Source of the DNA: a virus
Virus record (IMG/VR): IMGVR_UViG_3300048816_000006
Span: 1-25,583 of that record
DNA: 25,583 nt
Strand: one strand, 5' to 3'
Numbering within the stretch: position 1 is the stretch's first letter; each line of letters starts with the position of its first letter. The notes under the pieces are model-generated. The model was not told where the DNA came from, did not search any database, and saw only the letters and a list, made by a program, of their open reading frames with translations. The position numbers and the translations under genes are program-made. Below, in pieces: positions 8,525-17,905 of this stretch.

Positions 8525-9013
8525 ATGCCGAAGGCTCTCAGCGCACGCAAGCGCAACGCGGTCCTAGCCGACATCAGAGCCGGGCAGAAGGCGCGTAACC
8601 AGATCGCGCGGGACCACGGCGTATCACCGGGCACCGTCACGAACATCGCCAAGAGCGCCGCGATCGAGAACGCCTTTGACCGGTCAGGCACAAAAAGCGC
8701 TACGGAAGCCGCGGTCGCCGATGCGCGCTCGATCCGGGCCGCCACGTCGCGCCGGTTCCTGGACGAGACGAACAAGCTTCTCGATCAGCTCCACCAGCCG
8801 CACGTTGCCTACAACTTCGGCGGCAAGGACAACACGTACGAGGAGCACCAGTTCCCCGAGCCGCCGGTCGACGCCAAGCGGACCCTGGTCACCGCGGCGG
8901 CCATCGCGTTCGACAAGCACATCGCGGCCGACAGGCACGACGCCGACGAGTCCGCCGACGCGAGCTCGGTTGACCGGTGGCTGGAGTCGCTGACATCCGG
9001 CGAGGGACACTAG
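8525..9013 (+). CDS. terminase small subunit (HTH DNA-recognition protein)
   Basis: ATG 8525 follows GAGGA with six bases of spacing. The 162-aa protein begins with a basic helical segment and a helix-turn-helix at about residues 20-42 (ARNQIARDHGVSPGTVTNIA). A long helical middle follows (SIRAATSRRFLDETNKLLDQ) that could form the oligomerisation core, and an acidic tail. Small terminases recognise the packaging site on phage DNA and regulate the large subunit. The call rests on position (it ends seven bases before the large terminase), HTH plus helical core, and size. Sequence alone would also fit a general HTH protein. Confidence 0.75.
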   Translation: MPKALSARKRNAVLADIRAGQKARNQIARDHGVSPGTVTNIAKSAAIENAFDRSGTKSATEAAVADARSIRAATSRRFLDETNKLLDQLHQPHVAYNFGGKDNTYEEHQFPEPPVDAKRTLVTAAAIAFDKHIAADRHDADESADASSVDRWLESLTSGEGH

Positions 9014-9020
9014 GCGACCG

Positions 9021-10337
9021 GTGAAGGTTGCCCCTCTCGCCGGCAAGCAGCTCGAATCGGTCCGGCTGGCCACGGCTCGCGTGAATTTCTGGGAAGGCTC
9101 CGTCCGGTCCAGCAAGACGATCAGCAGCCTGATCGCGTGGCTCATCTTCGTCCGCGAGGCACCACCTGGAAACATTCTTCTCGTCGGCAAGACGACCAGG
9201 ACGCTCAAGCGGAACATCATCGACCCGCTGACGGAGATGCTCGGCAGTTCCCGGTGCCGCTACGTCGAGGGCTCCGGTGAGCTGTGGCTGCTCGGGCGCC
9301 GGATTTACGTCGCGGGTGCCCATAACGAGGGCAGTCAGGAGAAAATCCGCGGGCTCAGCCTGGTTTGCCTGTACGGCGATGAGGCTTCCACGTGGCCGGA
9401 GTCCTTCTGGGTAATGGCCATGTCCCGTCTTTCCGAGTACGGGGCTCGCGCCTACGTCACGAGCAACCCCGATTCCCCGGCCCATTTTCTGATGCGGGAC
9501 TGGCTTTCCCGCGCCTCGCTATGGCTGGACCACGCGGGGAACGTGCTCCGTTCTGAAGGTGATGACAGGCTCGACCTGGCGCGATTCTCGTTCCGCCTGG
9601 CTGATAACCCGTTCCTGCCTGCGGCTTACGTCAAGGCACTGGCCGCGGAGTTCGTGGGCCTGTGGCGGAAGCGGTTCATCGAGGGCCTGTGGGTCGCCGC
9701 CGAGGGCGCGATCTTCGACATGTGGGACCCGGACACGATGGTCGCGGACATCATGCCGCCCATCACGACGTGGCTGTGCGCCTCGATCGACTACGGCACG
9801 TCCAATCCGACGCACGCGCTGATGATCGGCCTCGGTACCGACCAGCGGATGTACGTCGTGGACGAGTGGCGCTATGACTCGCGTCAGCAGCGCAGGCAGC
9901 TGACGGACGCGGAGTACTCGCAGCGGATCCGGGCGTGGATCGAGCAGGTGAAGATCCCGGCGTCACGGCAGGCTGACGGATCGTTCATGCGCGGCGTGCG
10001 CCCTCACTACATCGTGGTCGACCCCTCCGCCGCGTCGTTCCGGGTCCAGCTCCAGCAGGACGGCCTCGTCACGGTTCCCGCGAACAACGAGGTGCTTGAC
10101 GGCATCCGCACGGTCTCAAGCCTGATGACCGCAGGCAAGCTGAGGATCAGCCGCGACTGCCCCGGACTCCTGGCCGAACTGCCGGCCTACGCCTGGGATG
10201 ACAAGGCCGCGAAGCTAGGCGAAGACAAGCCCGTCAAGGTAAATGATCACGGTTGCGACAGTTTGCGCTACGGAATATTTTCCACCCGTGCGCTCTGGCG
10301 GGGGGTAATCCCGCTCACTGCGCCGCAGGCAGCCTGA
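9021..10337 (+). CDS. terL: terminase large subunit (PBSX/phage-type ATPase-nuclease)
   Basis: The 438-aa protein has both terminase domains. The ATPase shows Walker A GSVRSSKT at residues 26-33, a Walker B-type LVCLYGDE ending with catalytic Glu at 121, and the coupling motif TSNPDSP at 147-153. The RNase H-like nuclease shows D257 (SIDYG), D334 (VVDPS) and DHGCDSLRY with D409/D413, the usual acidic triad. It drives DNA into proheads and cuts concatemers. GTG 9021 gives the common start just before a NFWEGSVRSSKT block. It follows TerS and precedes the portal. Length is normal for the PBSX-like group. Confidence 0.95.
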   Translation: MKVAPLAGKQLESVRLATARVNFWEGSVRSSKTISSLIAWLIFVREAPPGNILLVGKTTRTLKRNIIDPLTEMLGSSRCRYVEGSGELWLLGRRIYVAGAHNEGSQEKIRGLSLVCLYGDEASTWPESFWVMAMSRLSEYGARAYVTSNPDSPAHFLMRDWLSRASLWLDHAGNVLRSEGDDRLDLARFSFRLADNPFLPAAYVKALAAEFVGLWRKRFIEGLWVAAEGAIFDMWDPDTMVADIMPPITTWLCASIDYGTSNPTHALMIGLGTDQRMYVVDEWRYDSRQQRRQLTDAEYSQRIRAWIEQVKIPASRQADGSFMRGVRPHYIVVDPSAASFRVQLQQDGLVTVPANNEVLDGIRTVSSLMTAGKLRISRDCPGLLAELPAYAWDDKAAKLGEDKPVKVNDHGCDSLRYGIFSTRALWRGVIPLTAPQAA

Positions 10338-10378: not shown

Positions 10379-12163
10379 TTGGCCTTCTCGAACATGGACC
10401 TCCCGTTTGAGGACGCCCCGGTCGCCGGGTCGATGCTCACGAACACGCTTCCGGCCGGCGGGAAGATGCCCTGGCCGCCGACGCGGTTCAACCCAGTCCA
10501 CCTCGACCACCGCGTGTGGTCAGCGTGGTGGTCCGGCTCTGCTGACGAGCTGGTCCGCGCCTACAGCCGCGACAACGGCGGCAACTCCCCGGTTGCCCGG
10601 TCCTGGTCGGCGACGACCGGCGAGACGGGACTCCCTGCCGGGATGGGCCGGAACCGCGCGGGCCTGTTCGGCACCGTGCGCCGCTGGTTCTGGGGAAACA
10701 TCACGCCCGAGGGTGAGCGCCGGACCAATTACCATGTCCCCCTCGCCGGCGACCTCGCCAGCACCTCCGCGAACCTGCTCTTCGGCCAGCCTCCCAGCCT
10801 GAAGTACAAGGGCGATACCGCGACCCAGGACTACCTGTCCGGCCTGGTCGATGACGGCACCCACTCCAAGCTGATGGAGTCCGCGGAGACCTGCGCGGCT
10901 CTCGGCGGCGTCTACCTCCGTGTCGTGTGGGACACCGACATCGATGACAAGCCGTGGATCGACCTGGTGCCGGCTGACTGCGCGGTGCCCGAGTTCAAGT
11001 ACGGGCGCCTGACGGCGGTCACGTTCTGGTCGGTGATCCGCGACGAGGGCAAGAACGTCGTCCGGCACCTGGAGAAGCACGTTCCCGGCCAGAACGCCAT
11101 CCTGCACGGCGTCTACCAGGGCAATCAGCTTGAACTAGGCCAGCCGATGTCGCTGGCGGACTTCGAGGAGACGGCCCCCTACGCGAGCGTCCTGACCGAG
11201 GGCAACGCGATCCGGTTCCCCGACATGCCGAAAGACGCCAGCACCGTCGTGTACGTGCCGAACATGCGCCCGAACCGGGTGTGGCGGCAGCTGGGCCCGC
11301 AGGCCGCGCCGCTCGGCCGGTCGGACTACTCCGGCGTCGAGGGCCTCATGGACGCCCTGGACGAGGCGTACAGCTCGTGGATGCGGGACGTGAGGCTCGG
11401 CAAGGCGCGGCTGATCGTCCCGCAGTCGATGCTGCAGTCGCTCGGCCGCGGGCAGGGCGCGATCCTGGATCTCGACCGTGAGGTCATGGTGCCGATCGGC
11501 GGACTGGTGACCGGCGAGGGCGACATCAAGGCGCAGATCCTCCCGCAGCAGTTCGACATCCGCTGGCAGGCCCACCAGGAGACGTGCAGCAACCTGATCG
11601 AGTCGATCATCATGCTGGCGGGCTACTCGGGGCAGACCCTCGGCCTGCAAGGCGACATCGCGCAGACCGCTACCGAGGTGGTCGCCCGCGAGCGGAAGTC
11701 GATGACGACCCGCGGGAAGAAAATCAACTACTGGCGGCCGGCGTTCGCTGACATCATCTACGGCCTGATGGGCGTCAATTACGCCGTGTTCGGCAGCCCG
11801 ATCGCGCCGGTGCGGCCTGACGTCGAGTGGCCTGATGCGGTGCTCCCGGACCAGCTTGAGCTCGCGCAGACCGTCGCGGCGATGCGCGGAGCCGAATCCG
11901 CTTCGGTGGAGACGTCGGTGTCGATGCTGCATCCCGACTGGAAGCCCGAGGACGTCGCGCTGGAAGTCCAGCGGATCTACGCCGAGATCAACATCGACCT
12001 GCTGTCTCATGCGCGTATCGCGATCGGAGGGGCACCCGGCGAGTCGGTCGCGGAGGATCTCCAGGAGATCCCGGAGGCGATCGGCGCGACCGACGTCCAG
12101 GCGCAGGCCGAGGCGCTCGCGAACGTCTCCGACATGTACGACGCCCAGTCCGAGAGCAACTAG
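10379..12163 (+). CDS. portal protein, SPP1 gp6-like
   Basis: The 594-aa protein resembles portal proteins of actinophages in the SPP1 gp6-like family; the region FDIRWQAHQETCSNLIESII, then LAGYSGQTLGLQGD and TEVVARERKSMTTRGKKI, is typical of the clip/stem part. The portal forms the dodecameric ring at one vertex through which DNA passes and to which TerL docks. The start is taken as TTG 10379 because GGGGAGG (10366-10372) lies six bases upstream; the next in-frame ATG at 10394 is 21 bases from that site. Length is slightly over the usual 450-550 aa because of an N-terminal Pro-rich region and an acidic tail. Confidence 0.9.
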   Translation: MAFSNMDLPFEDAPVAGSMLTNTLPAGGKMPWPPTRFNPVHLDHRVWSAWWSGSADELVRAYSRDNGGNSPVARSWSATTGETGLPAGMGRNRAGLFGTVRRWFWGNITPEGERRTNYHVPLAGDLASTSANLLFGQPPSLKYKGDTATQDYLSGLVDDGTHSKLMESAETCAALGGVYLRVVWDTDIDDKPWIDLVPADCAVPEFKYGRLTAVTFWSVIRDEGKNVVRHLEKHVPGQNAILHGVYQGNQLELGQPMSLADFEETAPYASVLTEGNAIRFPDMPKDASTVVYVPNMRPNRVWRQLGPQAAPLGRSDYSGVEGLMDALDEAYSSWMRDVRLGKARLIVPQSMLQSLGRGQGAILDLDREVMVPIGGLVTGEGDIKAQILPQQFDIRWQAHQETCSNLIESIIMLAGYSGQTLGLQGDIAQTATEVVARERKSMTTRGKKINYWRPAFADIIYGLMGVNYAVFGSPIAPVRPDVEWPDAVLPDQLELAQTVAAMRGAESASVETSVSMLHPDWKPEDVALEVQRIYAEINIDLLSHARIAIGGAPGESVAEDLQEIPEAIGATDVQAQAEALANVSDMYDAQSESN

Positions 12164-13387: not shown

Positions 13388-13849
13388 ATGACTGCCTCGG
13401 CAGCCGCTCCCGGCGAGATCACGGACGCCGAGATGGACGGGGATGACATCCCGCGCAGGGCCTACCAGGGCTACGTGATCATCGAGTTCCCGGTGCCCGA
13501 GTCGACGCCGGAGCACCCCCGGCCGGGCATCCTGGCCGGCTACAACATGATGGTCGTCAACGCGGCGGACGAGAAGCCCGTCCTCACGGTCTCACGGGTG
13601 GAGCTCCACGCCGAGGCGAACGACATCATCACCGCCGACCTGACCATGATGGCGGACGCTGACGGCAGGCCGCTCATGGACACCAGCGTGATCTACCGCC
13701 GGGGCGACGAGATCGTCACCGGCACGTTCCCGTTCATCGTCACCGGGATCCGCAACTACGGCTCGCAGCAGGAGATCCGCGACCGCATCAAAGCATCCGG
13801 GGTCCACGCGGGCAGGTCGAAGGTTGTCGAAATCCCCGGCCAGCACTGA
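13388..13849 (+). CDS. hypothetical structural-region protein, 153 aa
   Basis: ATG 13388 is preferred because GGGGAG (13379-13384) precedes it; GTG 13373 would overlap the previous stop with no site of its own. The protein begins with a polar acidic stretch, then alternates strands and turns (YQGYVIIEFPVPESTPEHP, ADEKPVLTVSRVELHAEA, DTSVIYRRGDEIVTGTFPF) and ends in a helix (QQEIRDRIKASG). A beta-rich fold is likely. Its end overlaps the MuF gene by 26 bases. The position between portal and MuF would fit a head accessory protein, but no family is recognised. Confidence 0.55.
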   Translation: MTASAAAPGEITDAEMDGDDIPRRAYQGYVIIEFPVPESTPEHPRPGILAGYNMMVVNAADEKPVLTVSRVELHAEANDIITADLTMMADADGRPLMDTSVIYRRGDEIVTGTFPFIVTGIRNYGSQQEIRDRIKASGVHAGRSKVVEIPGQH

Positions 13850-15053
13850 CCGGCTAGCCTTCGCGCTCACCGCAACCATTGCCACCGCAGCCCGCAAGAC
13901 GCTCGCGAACCCGGCATCGGCGACACTGGCACGCCGCAGGCTGGCCAGGACAGTAGCGGTCCTGGCCTCGCAGCACGCCGGACCGCAGGCCGTGCGGGCC
14001 GCGCGGAAGGACGCTGACACCGCGCTCACCGCCGTACTGAACGCGGGCAGTCCCGCCGCCGCGCAGGCGGTCATGAACGGGATAGCGGACCGGCAGCTCA
14101 CCGCGAGACCGGCATCGGTCCGCCATGCTTCCCTCCGCGCCGCCGCCGCGATCACCCCGGAAGCGAAGATCCGGGCCCGCACGAAGCTGTCACGGGCCCT
14201 CGCGGCAGCCGGGCCGCGCATGCCCACGATCCACCTCGGCCGTCTCGAAGGCGTCTGGGCGGTCGTGTACGGCCGGCGTGAGCGGCTGCTCCGCAGGCAC
14301 CGCAAGGCGGTCGCGGAAGCGTGGGACGCAGCCACCGCGGACCTGAAGCCCCGCAGCGCCGTGCGGGCGTTCCGCAAGGCCGCCGCGGCGACACCGGGCA
14401 CGCCGGCCCGGGACACGGCCACCATTGCCGCCCTGGTGTGGCTGGAAGCGGTCTACCGCAGCGCCGCCCTCGTCGCCGCCCTCAGTTCCGTCATCAGCGA
14501 CGGGCAGGCTGAAGGCGAAGCGGACGCCATAGCGCTCGCAGCGGACCGCCACGGCATCACGGGCGCGGACACCAGGAAAGCGTTCCTGGCCGCGCTCGCG
14601 CTCGCCCAGGCTGATCCCGGACTGGCTGAGCGGGCCAGGGAAGCCGTGAAGGCGCTCATCGGCGGCGCAGCCTACGACGTGGGCCGCAAGCTCGCCAGCA
14701 TGGCAGCCGGTGACGCCAGCGAAGACGACATGGCCGCTGCCGTTCAGGACGCGATCTCGGGTGATCAGTCCCGGTCGGTCAGCGCGAACACGGACTGGAC
14801 GCTGCATGCGGCGATCCTCGCCGGGGCGGTCGGCCTGTACCAGCGGCTGTCCGGCGGGATCCTGCTGGACTGGATAACTGCCGGGGATGACAGGGTGTGC
14901 GCCCGCTGCGCGGGCTATGAGGACAACGGCCCCTACAGCCCGGACCGCGTGCCCGGCTACCCGCACACCGGCTGCCGGTGCATCACCAGCGTGTCCAGGT
15001 CCACACCGCTATCGCATGCTCTCGCGTCGCTCATCGGCGCATTCACGGGCTAG
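13824..15053 (+). CDS. MuF-like minor head protein (SPP1 gp7-type)
   Basis: The 409-aa protein is Ala/Arg-rich and helical over most of its length. It ends with the MuF signature: LDWITAGDDRVCARC (C359, C362), then YPHTGCRCITSV with H381, C384 and C386. MuF proteins bind the portal inside the prohead and help DNA delivery. The start is uncertain: TTG 13824 is the first codon in the frame with a plausible site, overlapping the previous gene by 26 bases; the next usable ATG is much further in. The stop lies 11 bases past the stop of the convergent minus-strand gene. The long helical N-terminus is more Ala-rich than usual. Confidence 0.75.
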   Translation: MSKSPASTDRLAFALTATIATAARKTLANPASATLARRRLARTVAVLASQHAGPQAVRAARKDADTALTAVLNAGSPAAAQAVMNGIADRQLTARPASVRHASLRAAAAITPEAKIRARTKLSRALAAAGPRMPTIHLGRLEGVWAVVYGRRERLLRRHRKAVAEAWDAATADLKPRSAVRAFRKAAAATPGTPARDTATIAALVWLEAVYRSAALVAALSSVISDGQAEGEADAIALAADRHGITGADTRKAFLAALALAQADPGLAERAREAVKALIGGAAYDVGRKLASMAAGDASEDDMAAAVQDAISGDQSRSVSANTDWTLHAAILAGAVGLYQRLSGGILLDWITAGDDRVCARCAGYEDNGPYSPDRVPGYPHTGCRCITSVSRSTPLSHALASLIGAFTG

Positions 15054-15873
15054 CCGCCGGGCGCACGTCGATCGTCCACAACGGTTTGCCGTCTGCGCAT
15101 CGTCGGCGGTGCTGGAGCGCCTCACGCCAGATTTCTGGCGGGTATGCCCAGCGATCCGGCAAGCCCTCCCCGCCGAGCATCTTGTCGAGATATCGCTTCT
15201 CGGCCACGGCGCCAGCAAAGATCGCCGGCTCATCAGCTGGGTCGGCCTCCGTCCAGTCGGCCTCGTCGCCACAGAGCCAGTCACCGCACTGCGGATAGCG
15301 AACCGGTTCGCGCGGCACGCTCGCCAGGACTTGCACAGAGGTCAGTCCGAGGCGGCCGTCGTACGCGCCGAACTTGAGTTGCAACTCGGACGGTTTGATG
15401 TCGTGGCCGCAGGCGCCCACGTACCATGCGAACTTCCTCCTGGCCATCTGCTCGTAGCCGTACGAGGTCATGGCGTACATACCACAGAAGTCAACCAGCC
15501 AGTACTCGCGTTCGAGCGCGGTCGGCGCACCCTCGGTAAGCATGCCTTCGCAGACCACGAGGTGGCGCGTCGTGTAGTCAGCGTCTTCCAAGAGGATCGT
15601 CGTCTGCCGGGTCAGCTTCCAGACGTCGCCAGGCAGCGTCTTATCGACCTCGACGGGCATCCCGGCGAGTGCTCCCGCCCCCCCTACTCGCCCGAGCATC
15701 ATCCAGTCTTCAAAGCTGGCCGGCGGCTTCGGCGTTTCGGTGACCGAGCGCTCGCGCAGGTGAGCGTCCACAACGGTCCCGCAGACAAACCGGATCCCGT
15801 AAGGCGCAGACCGCGAGCGGCCTGCAAACCAGTCGCGCATCTCGCGTGCGACATCTCCGGCGGCACACTTCAT
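15043..15873 (-). CDS. minus-strand cargo (moron-like) gene of unknown function, 276 aa
   Basis: ATG 15873 (MKCAAGDVAREMRDWFAGRS) follows AGGGTGG and a leaderless-type -10; GTG 15882 is an alternative. The product is soluble, with no signal peptide or membrane helix. It is rich in Trp, Tyr and Cys (FAWYVGACGHDIKP, PQCGDWLCGDEADWTEADP, WAYPPEIWREALQHRRRC). Third-position GC looks lower than in its neighbours, which suggests a separate origin. It is the only minus-strand gene in the head module and splits MuF from scaffold. I do not recognise the family. A lysogenic-expression or defence role fits the location but is inference. Confidence 0.7.
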   Translation of the reverse strand: MKCAAGDVAREMRDWFAGRSRSAPYGIRFVCGTVVDAHLRERSVTETPKPPASFEDWMMLGRVGGAGALAGMPVEVDKTLPGDVWKLTRQTTILLEDADYTTRHLVVCEGMLTEGAPTALEREYWLVDFCGMYAMTSYGYEQMARRKFAWYVGACGHDIKPSELQLKFGAYDGRLGLTSVQVLASVPREPVRYPQCGDWLCGDEADWTEADPADEPAIFAGAVAEKRYLDKMLGGEGLPDRWAYPPEIWREALQHRRRCADGKPLWTIDVRPAASP

Positions 15874-15880
15874 GCCGCCC

Positions 15881-15908
15881 ACCCTAAGCCACCCTGCCTA
15901 GCGCAGGG
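15881..15908 (-). promoter_or_regulatory. leaderless promoter with overlapping inverted repeat for the minus-strand gene
   Basis: On the minus strand, TAGGGT (plus-strand 15881-15886) ends seven bases before ATG 15873. Just upstream, CCCTGC (15892-15897) and GCAGGG (15903-15908) form a 6-bp perfect inverted repeat around CTAGC. The repeat covers the spacer and -35 region, where a repressor would block the promoter. On the plus strand the same hairpin is followed by CTTT and could act as a weak terminator before the scaffold gene. Confidence 0.45.
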
Positions 15909-15964
15909 CTTTCCGCTCCGGGCTGGTCCGGGGCAAACCCGTCAAGCCCCTGGAGGGCTCTCTG

Positions 15965-16906
15965 ATGCACCGCATCAACCTGCCGGTGACGCCTGGCGCG
16001 ATCATCGGCTACCGCAAGAACGGAACGCCCATCCGTCTCATCGCCGGCGGGTCCGGTGAAGGCGACGAGGGCGGCGGCACCACCGAAGGCCAGGAGGGCA
16101 ACGCCGGGAACAGCGGCGGTGACGCTGGCCAGACGGACAGCACCGACGGCCAGGAACCGCCTGAGGGCGCTAGCAGCGGCGATGGAGCGGACACCTCGGC
16201 CGATGACAAGACCACCCGGACCGTCGCCGCGATCCGCCAGGAGTTCAAGGATGAGCGGGCCAAGCGGCAGGCGGCAGAGAGGGAGGTCGCGTCCATCAAG
16301 GCTGCGCTCGAAGCCGACAAGGCCGAGCGCACGAAGCAGATGGACGCCCTCGCGATCGCTCTCGGGCTCAAGTCCGGGGACGAGCCGCCGGACCCGGTGA
16401 AGCTCGCCGCCGAGCTGAAGGCCGCACAGGAGAAGGCCGCTGCCGAGATCAGCCAGCGTGACGCCGCGATCAGGACGAGCCAGGTTGAGCTCGCCGTCCT
16501 CCGCAACGCGGGCAGGCACGGCGGCAACGGTGACGCGCTGCTCGACTCCCGCAGCTTCATGGCGAAGGTGAACGGGCTGGACCCGTCCGCCGATGACTTC
16601 GCTGACCAGCTCGGGGACGCGATCAAGGCCGCTGTCGAGTCGTCGCCGCAGTACAAGGCAACCGCCGCCCCGCCGGCCGGCGGTAACGGAGACGGGAACG
16701 GCGGCGGCCAGAAGCCTCCGGCAACTCCCGCGCGCTCCGGCGGCGAGCACACCACTCCGGGCGGTAACCGCCAGTGGACGATCGAGGACGTCAGGGCCGT
16801 CAGGACCGCGAACGACCCGTCCACGGCGGCGAAGCTGATCGACGAGGCGGTCAATAGCGGCTTCCTCTCCGAGCTTGGCTATCAGCCCAGCAAGAACCGC
16901 CGCTAA
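15965..16906 (+). CDS. capsid scaffolding protein
   Basis: The 313-aa product has the usual scaffold plan. A short ordered start (MHRINLPVTPGAIIGYRKNG) leads to an acidic Gly/Glu/Asp-rich region (about residues 29-85), then a long charged coiled coil (about 90-180; RQEFKDERAKRQAAEREVAS). A Gly/Pro-rich linker and a C-terminal helix with basic end (ELGYQPSKNRR) follow, which would bind coat protein. GGAGG lies eight bases before ATG 15965. It directly precedes the coat gene. Scaffolds guide prohead assembly and then leave or are cut; no protease gene is seen in the window. Confidence 0.85.
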   Translation: MHRINLPVTPGAIIGYRKNGTPIRLIAGGSGEGDEGGGTTEGQEGNAGNSGGDAGQTDSTDGQEPPEGASSGDGADTSADDKTTRTVAAIRQEFKDERAKRQAAEREVASIKAALEADKAERTKQMDALAIALGLKSGDEPPDPVKLAAELKAAQEKAAAEISQRDAAIRTSQVELAVLRNAGRHGGNGDALLDSRSFMAKVNGLDPSADDFADQLGDAIKAAVESSPQYKATAAPPAGGNGDGNGGGQKPPATPARSGGEHTTPGGNRQWTIEDVRAVRTANDPSTAAKLIDEAVNSGFLSELGYQPSKNRR

Positions 16907-16912
16907 CAGCAC

Positions 16913-16939
16913 ACCGCGCACGGCACGTACCCGCGCGGT
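16913..16939. repeat. 7-bp inverted repeat after the scaffold gene
   Basis: ACCGCGC (16913-16919) and GCGCGGT (16933-16939) are perfect complements with a 13-base loop. It sits six bases after the scaffold stop and just before the strong terminator, so the two make a tandem hairpin pair. Confidence 0.45.
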
Positions 16940-16946
16940 TCCACCT

Positions 16947-16977
16947 AAGCCCCGGAAGCAGCATTCCGGGGCTTTTT
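16947..16977 (+). terminator. strong intrinsic terminator before the major capsid gene
   Basis: AAGCCCCGGAA (16947-16957) pairs perfectly with TTCCGGGGCTT (16964-16974) around a 6-base loop, and TTT follows to give an unbroken run of five T's. The stem is 11 bp. The capsid start codon lies only 23 bases further on, and no promoter is seen between, so read-through or RNA processing is needed for capsid expression. Confidence 0.8.
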
Positions 16978-16999
16978 CATGCGCAGAGAGGTACGAGAC

Positions 17000-17905
17000 G
17001 TGACTTACCGTAACTTCATCCCCGAAGTGTGGAGCCCGCTGATCCTCGCGGCGCTCCAGAAGAAGCTGGTCTACGGCTCTTCGATGGTCACCAACCAGGA
17101 CTACGAGGGTGACATCCAGGAGCGCGGCGACACCGTGCACATCACGCAGTTCGGCGACCCGACGGTCACGACCTACGTGCCTGGTGTCGCGCTGGTCTAC
17201 CAGCAGATCGCCGACGCCGGCCAGATCCTGCTCATCGACCAGGCCAAGTCGTTCAGCTTCTCCATCACCGACGTGGACCGGGCGCAGGCCGCAGGCAAGA
17301 TGCAGCCCTACCTCGAGGGCCGGGCCGCGTACAAGATGGCCGACGCGGCGGACCAGTTCCTGGCCGCCAAGTACACCGGCGCCGCCGTGAACAACATCCT
17401 CGGCTCGACCGGCTCCCCGCTGACCCCGCAGCCGTACGCGGGCTCGACCAGCCACCCGGCCGACATGTTCGTGCAGGTGCTGGAGCCGCTAAAGGTCATC
17501 CTCGACCAGAACGATGTCCCCGACGAGGACAGGTACATCACCTGCCCGCCGTGGGCCGTGTCGCTGATCAGCCAGACGCAGGCGTTCGTCTCCGTCACCG
17601 ACATGCAGGGCGACCCGTCGCAGGTGTTCCAGCGCGGGTTCATGGGCCAGGTCTCCGGGTTCAACGTCCTGAAGACCAACAACGCCCCGCAGCCCGTCGC
17701 GGGCGGCGCCGGAACCGGCGTCTGGGCGCTGCAGGCCGGCCACCCGATGGCCCTCACCTACGCCGAGCAGATCGCCGAGACGGAAGCGCTCAGGCTTCAG
17801 ACCGACTTCAGCGACGGGGTCCGCGGGCTCCACCTGTACGGCGGCAAGCTCGTCCGCCCGGACTGCCTCGCGGTCGCCTATGTCGAGCGCCCGGTCGGCA
17901 TCTGA
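17000..17905 (+). CDS. major capsid protein (HK97/P22-coat-like fold)
   Basis: GTG 17000 is preferred to ATG 16979: AGAGAGG lies eight bases before it and the product then begins VTYRNFIPEVWSPLILAALQ, the usual start of this actinophage coat family. The 301 residues include YEGDIQERGDTVHITQFGDP, where N-arm and E-loop-like segments begin, and DRYITCPPWAVSLISQTQ in the later A/P-domain part, ending KLVRPDCLAVAYVERPVGI. It forms the icosahedral shell. The family places it in the HK97-like coats of the P22 type; the exact fold is inferred. It lies after scaffold and terminator. Confidence 0.9.
   Translation: MTYRNFIPEVWSPLILAALQKKLVYGSSMVTNQDYEGDIQERGDTVHITQFGDPTVTTYVPGVALVYQQIADAGQILLIDQAKSFSFSITDVDRAQAAGKMQPYLEGRAAYKMADAADQFLAAKYTGAAVNNILGSTGSPLTPQPYAGSTSHPADMFVQVLEPLKVILDQNDVPDEDRYITCPPWAVSLISQTQAFVSVTDMQGDPSQVFQRGFMGQVSGFNVLKTNNAPQPVAGGAGTGVWALQAGHPMALTYAEQIAETEALRLQTDFSDGVRGLHLYGGKLVRPDCLAVAYVERPVGI

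Follow-up and report, generated by a model that had tools for sequence, protein, structure and literature searches.

The window, by which we mean the whole stretch of DNA analysed, is a complete IMG/VR record of 25,583 bp. Its plus strand carries a head module in the order TerL, portal, MuF, scaffold and major head protein (MCP). Between MuF and scaffold lies a gene on the minus strand, which we call P. The features of this region are:

9021-10337, plus strand: TerL (PHROGs/Pfam match)
ending at 12163, plus strand: SPP1-type portal (PHROGs/Pfam match)
13824..15053, plus strand: MuF-type minor head protein (C-terminal CxxC...HTGCRC motif, weak PHROG head-morphogenesis match)
15043..15873, minus strand: P, orphan and probable cargo gene, 276 aa (open frame, coding-type base bias, without family match)
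15881..15886, minus strand: TAGGGT, putative -10 box of a leaderless reverse promoter, 7 nt before the ATG of P
15892..15912, plus strand: terminator-like hairpin CCCTGC-CTAGC-GCAGGG with the short T run CTTT (seen in the sequence and in alignment A2)
15915..15934, plus strand: second hairpin, loop CTGG, ahead of the ribosome-binding site of scaffold (a few compensatory pairs)
15952..15957, plus strand: GGAGGG, ribosome-binding site of the scaffold gene
15965..16906, plus strand: scaffold gene, right flank of the cassette (PHROG scaffold matches)
16979-17905, plus strand: MCP (PHROGs/Pfam match)

P is a minus-strand open reading frame of 276 codons with an ATG start (15043-15873); an alternative GTG start 9 nt upstream of the ATG would extend the protein to 279 aa. 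The MuF stop codon forms the left edge of the cassette, and the 3′ ends of MuF and P overlap by 11 nt. P is the only frame across its interval which is both free of stop codons and has a coding-type position bias (GC of 0.66, 0.51 and 0.79 at the three codon positions, codon log-odds of +0.08 per codon). A competing open frame on the plus strand (14887-16059) has a codon score of -0.44 and a GC3 of 0.64. The original prediction of a 276-aa minus-strand gene between MuF and scaffold is thus confirmed. Its lower third-position GC also holds: the GC3 of P is 0.79, compared with 0.84 for TerL, 0.85 for MuF, 0.88 for scaffold, 0.92 for portal and 0.94 for MCP, the gap to TerL and MuF being modest.

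The deduced protein has a mass of 30.8 kDa and a pI of 5.3; it is acidic and rich in Trp and Cys, and no hydrophobic or membrane segment was found in it. Asparagine is absent from all 276 residues. It is barely credible that P is a spurious reading frame in a GC-rich intergenic relic. Such a frame could well be an orphan, lack asparagine and have, as P does, a codon score that ranks with the lowest of the longer genes. However, P has the coding position bias, its ATG is correctly spaced from the box, only 0.1% of shuffles of the interval keep the minus frame open over its full length, and the same architecture recurs in relatives.

No family identifies P, as had been stated from the sequence at the outset. 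The protein has no match in Pfam, PHROGs, NCBIfam, PADLOC or PDB sequences, where the PADLOC models were searched up to E 10, and tblastn against phage and plasmid collections gave no match either. No homologue was found in about 1,900 genomes. Pattern scans of viral contigs with three peptide sets, and of genome contigs, returned nothing; these scans used exact 8-mers and have limited reach, so that distant relatives may exist. One genome, G909, gave a match (E 1e-3 per genome, 345 genomes); it runs antisense to an open reading frame of 784 aa, was not reproduced by tblastn and was judged to be due to chance. The single-sequence AlphaFold model of P (pLDDT 36) was unusable and was kept out of the fold search. 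The original prediction had named two outcomes that would speak against it, a clear structural-gene homologue and a plus-strand orthologue in related phages. Neither of the two turned up in our searches.

We collected about 50 related loci by searches with the portal and head proteins; their head proteins are 41 to 95% identical to that of the window. Three of these relatives sit in named genome records, all of Actinomycetota, one being a Streptacidiphilus carbonis contig. Matches to integrases or resolvases (tyrosine or serine integrase) were found in the records of four relatives and none within the 25.6-kb window, which is itself a fragment. The sequences thus point to a temperate life for relatives only and not for the phage of the window. 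Dereplication left 33 distinct junctions, and a MuF gene could be recognised in 25 of them. One or more minus-strand genes were called between MuF and scaffold in 11 of these 25, the window included, with a maximum of six genes in L011. Three further loci (L003, L005 and L027) have smaller minus-strand genes which the gene caller missed and which are preceded by the same box. The genes at this junction belong to several unrelated groups, none convincingly related to P, and are about 60-140 aa long; P, with 276 aa, is longer. In L006 and L008 only about 85 bp separate MuF from scaffold, and no gene occupies this site in the isolated phages Jace and phiSASD1.

These comparisons also bear on a structural role. 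P could be a lytic head-assembly or capsid-associated protein which is reversed by chance, and its place between MuF and scaffold would suit such a function. But no PHROG or Pfam head family matches P, the gene is on the opposite strand, no relative with these head genes carries it, and Jace and phiSASD1 do without any gene here. We regard this explanation as highly unlikely.

A small family with a conserved HxxxxC...HxxxC pattern, which is probably zinc-binding, recurs as reverse cargo. It is found in L009 (8604-8924), L031 (6097-6384) and L040 (18299-18625), and twice per junction in L011 (7121-7492 and 8353-8604) and L017 (1819-2064 and 2057-2290). The family has no Pfam match above the cut-off, and its AlphaFold model (pLDDT 76) gave no fold match. 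With a profile of this family P scores about best among some 950 other phage proteins, at 9 bits and E 0.1. The score is weak, and a larger profile does not raise it; we therefore treat it as a lead and not as a relation. The junction of L010 contains, on the minus strand at 8786-8869, what looks like the 3′ half of a tRNA, possibly an RNA cargo or an att relic (Rfam tRNA-Sec 18.5 bits, below the gathering score; ARAGORN negative).

The TAGGGT element had been noted seven bases from the ATG of P, and it is indeed found there, with its first T 13 nt before the ATG. We found neither a Shine-Dalgarno sequence nor a -35-like hexamer. In Actinobacteria leaderless genes are signalled by a TANNNT placed about 12 nt upstream of the start; they make up roughly 20% of the genes in Streptomyces (PMC3160421, PMC6742748). 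Judged from its sequence, P has the pattern of a leaderless gene, that is TANNNT about 12 nt upstream, an ATG and no Shine-Dalgarno sequence. The motif TANNNT-N6/7-ATG occurs once in the whole window, at P, and about two occurrences are expected by chance; the box of P alone is therefore not significant. It becomes significant because the arrangement is shared: of the 11 distinct junctions where a minus-strand gene was called, 10 have TANNNT 6 or 7 nt before a start, compared with only 16 of 490 plus-strand control genes (Fisher p about 2e-13). The starts scored were those of the minus-strand gene nearest to scaffold, and the gene caller, a simple one, was the same for junctions and controls. 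A junction gene of the Streptacidiphilus carbonis element (L053/L009), for instance, has TACCGT-N6-ATG. Across the junctions the boxes differ little from one another (TAGGGT, TACGGT, TACCGT), and their distance to the start agrees with that of the published leaderless genes of Actinobacteria (PMC3160421, PMC6742748). The relatives thus make it probable that P has a leaderless promoter of its own.

The terminator-like hairpin at 15892..15912 would end transcription from the MuF side. Its T run is longer in relatives, and in the window it was not called by the consensus terminator scan. A search of viral contigs with the promoter-terminator segment returned only contigs already among the relatives. 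In alignment A2 the arms of the second hairpin vary while pairing is kept in some relatives; it is possibly a structured leader or operator.

The most serious rival to a protein-coding cassette is an antisense RNA which starts at the reverse promoter, runs into MuF and the late operon and either represses the operon or excludes superinfecting phages, the reading frames being secondary. The promoter-terminator segment is kept while the reading frames change, L052 retains a TAGGGT box without a good reading frame behind it, and a simple consensus scan found no terminator-like site on the minus strand after P. Moreover, a prophage antisense RNA that excludes superinfecting phages, STnc6030, is known (PMC7067206). 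In most junctions with a minus-strand gene, however, the start codon lies exactly 6-7 nt past the box and the frame is coding-biased. A role of the RNA alone would need neither the spacing nor the coding bias, and is therefore disfavoured; we consider it improbable.

The edges of the cassette can be read from closely related phages. L034 is 99-100% identical to L033, L035, L050 and L054 over 4-5.7 kb to the left of the MuF stop codon. To the right, starting at the reverse -10 box, the identity is 99.3-99.8% over 1.5-6.5 kb. The stretches enclosed by these two points (193 bp vs 441 bp) have almost nothing in common. To judge from these alignments they are practically the same phage apart from the cassette. 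In the 441-bp version, 16 nt of the MuF 3′ end are present once more inside the gap, as though a cassette had been inserted next to the remnant of another. In L033 (4180-4426) two cassettes are apparently stacked, in the order reverse gene with TACAGT-N6-ATG, 16-nt copy of the MuF 3′ end and a further stretch that reaches the shared reverse promoter. The window becomes homologous to L003 and L052 again at 15880, next to the ATG of P, and the -10 box thus falls in the shared part. Since the MuF type of the window differs from that of its nearest relatives, P may have arrived alone or together with MuF. The swap, together with the exchangeable minus-strand genes at the junctions of the relatives, strongly supports the moron position that had been suggested for P.

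MuF itself seems, from two relatives, to be dispensable or exchangeable. A MuF-type gene is present in L006 (8012-8938) and absent from L007 (4905-4950); the flanks are 81-85% identical and enclose 927 bp in the former vs 44 bp in the latter. ARAGORN calls a tRNA-Ser antisense inside the MuF-type gene of L006.

The exchange also concerns the idea that P is an immunity protein against a toxin domain at the end of MuF. MuF toxin genes usually have a small immunity reading frame behind them (PMC5576092), and P likewise follows directly after MuF. Unlike in these modules, the MuF protein of the window has no C-terminal toxin extension and ends 23 residues after the HTGCRC motif. P is long and reversed, with 276 aa on the opposite strand, whereas immunity reading frames usually have <150 aa, and in relatives the cassette changes while MuF remains unchanged. 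Such a toxin-immunity system is, in our view, extremely improbable.

Taken by its sequence, the MuF–scaffold junction is a cassette site behind a putative leaderless reverse promoter, that is, a moron locus, comparable by analogy to those of Pid in P22 and Tab in JBD26. The site lies between genes which are adjacent in related phages (about 85 bp apart in L006 and L008), and the composition of P differs, modestly, from that of its neighbours in GC3. With good confidence we propose that P is carried as cargo by a moron cassette and is made from a leaderless reverse message independently of the late operon; the comparisons above leave the moron reading of P well supported. The cassette would fill the space from the MuF stop codon to the reverse promoter, which abuts the plus-strand terminator before scaffold. 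In the prophage the host RNA polymerase would start at TAGGGT, and the transcript would begin at or next to the ATG of P. A soluble 31-kDa protein would then be translated from the leaderless message, apart from the late operon, and could be produced in the prophage state while the head genes are silent. Cassette exchange would proceed through homologous recombination within the head genes on either side. P is thus most likely a cargo gene that is switched on in infected, surviving bacteria.

Known systems offer some guidance to what P might do. Tab of the Pseudomonas phage JBD26 is likewise a minus-strand moron inside the late (packaging/head) region; it has its own promoter and is expressed from the prophage (PMC10884400). 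Unlike P, it has 83 residues and lies between the genes for the small and the large terminase subunits. Tab blocks virion assembly and has a cognate anti-Tab (PMC10884400); P is likened to it from sequence alone. Pid of the Salmonella phage P22 differs from P in its size (86 aa), its Shine-Dalgarno start and its own 3′ terminator (PMC3573128). In the carrier state its target is the host dgo operon (PMC3573128). The Mycobacterium phage Sbash and the phages of cluster N are actinobacterial phages with lysogenically expressed defence genes, in part leftward (PMC6426596), but the Sbash system consists of two genes, unlike P. Judged from Tab, Pid and Sbash, our leading guess would be an effect of P on other phages or on host physiology. 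A cytosolic action of P in the lysogen, directed against competing phages, is a base-rate guess, which we hold to be possible rather than probable. A membrane-type exclusion protein is disfavoured because of the missing membrane segment and the searches with the PADLOC models.

The regularity of the cassette site is more interesting than P alone. The junction might be a dedicated expression site in a largely uncultivated clade of actinobacterial phages: the reverse leaderless promoter and the terminator would belong to the phage backbone, only the reading frame would be exchanged, the cargo would arrive without a promoter as at a dock for cassettes, and many of the orphans, P among them, would be new effectors that protect the lysogen. 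We put this forward tentatively and consider the proposal as a whole rather unlikely. If the junction works as we read it, its signature would be MuF stop codon, reverse gene, TASSGT-N6-ATG, terminator and scaffold. This signature would then mark a pool of unstudied, prophage-expressed effectors from soil Actinomycetota which could be collected by sequence and screened together, and the near-identical phages differing only in the cassette would be a clean case of cargo exchange, resolved at a single junction.

The neighbouring gap between scaffold and MCP is a second insertion site, which adjoins the one between MuF and scaffold. Several relatives carry reverse-strand HNH endonuclease genes there:

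L005:14042-14215, minus strand: HNH gene in the scaffold-MCP gap
L015:2712-3188, minus strand: HNH gene in the scaffold-MCP gap
L028:2704-2958, minus strand: HNH gene in the scaffold-MCP gap
L030:7734-8015, minus strand: HNH gene in the scaffold-MCP gap
L036:6240-6554, minus strand: HNH gene in the scaffold-MCP gap
L043:1231-1740, minus strand: HNH gene in the scaffold-MCP gap
L047:9129-9458, minus strand: HNH gene in the scaffold-MCP gap

With such genes only one gap further, P might itself belong to a selfish element and encode, for example, a homing endonuclease. However, P matches no nuclease family, no HNH domain was found in it with Pfam, PHROG or NCBIfam and no HNH-like motif by eye, and in the relatives tested the gap between MuF and scaffold holds genes other than HNH genes. 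A selfish origin of P is therefore very improbable.

The major capsid gene of L018 is interrupted by a group I intron (10807-11065; Rfam RF00028, 64 bits, above the gathering score), and the same split head gene is found in L019-L022. Just upstream, L018 has a minus-strand HNH-type gene (9250-9726) which possibly encodes the homing enzyme of the intron. In the window a strong terminator-like hairpin, CCCCGGAA...TTCCGGGG CTTTTT, lies in the gap between scaffold and capsid genes (16907-16977). It is preceded by about 40 bp that match L052 almost perfectly, even though the scaffold genes differ at their 3′ ends.
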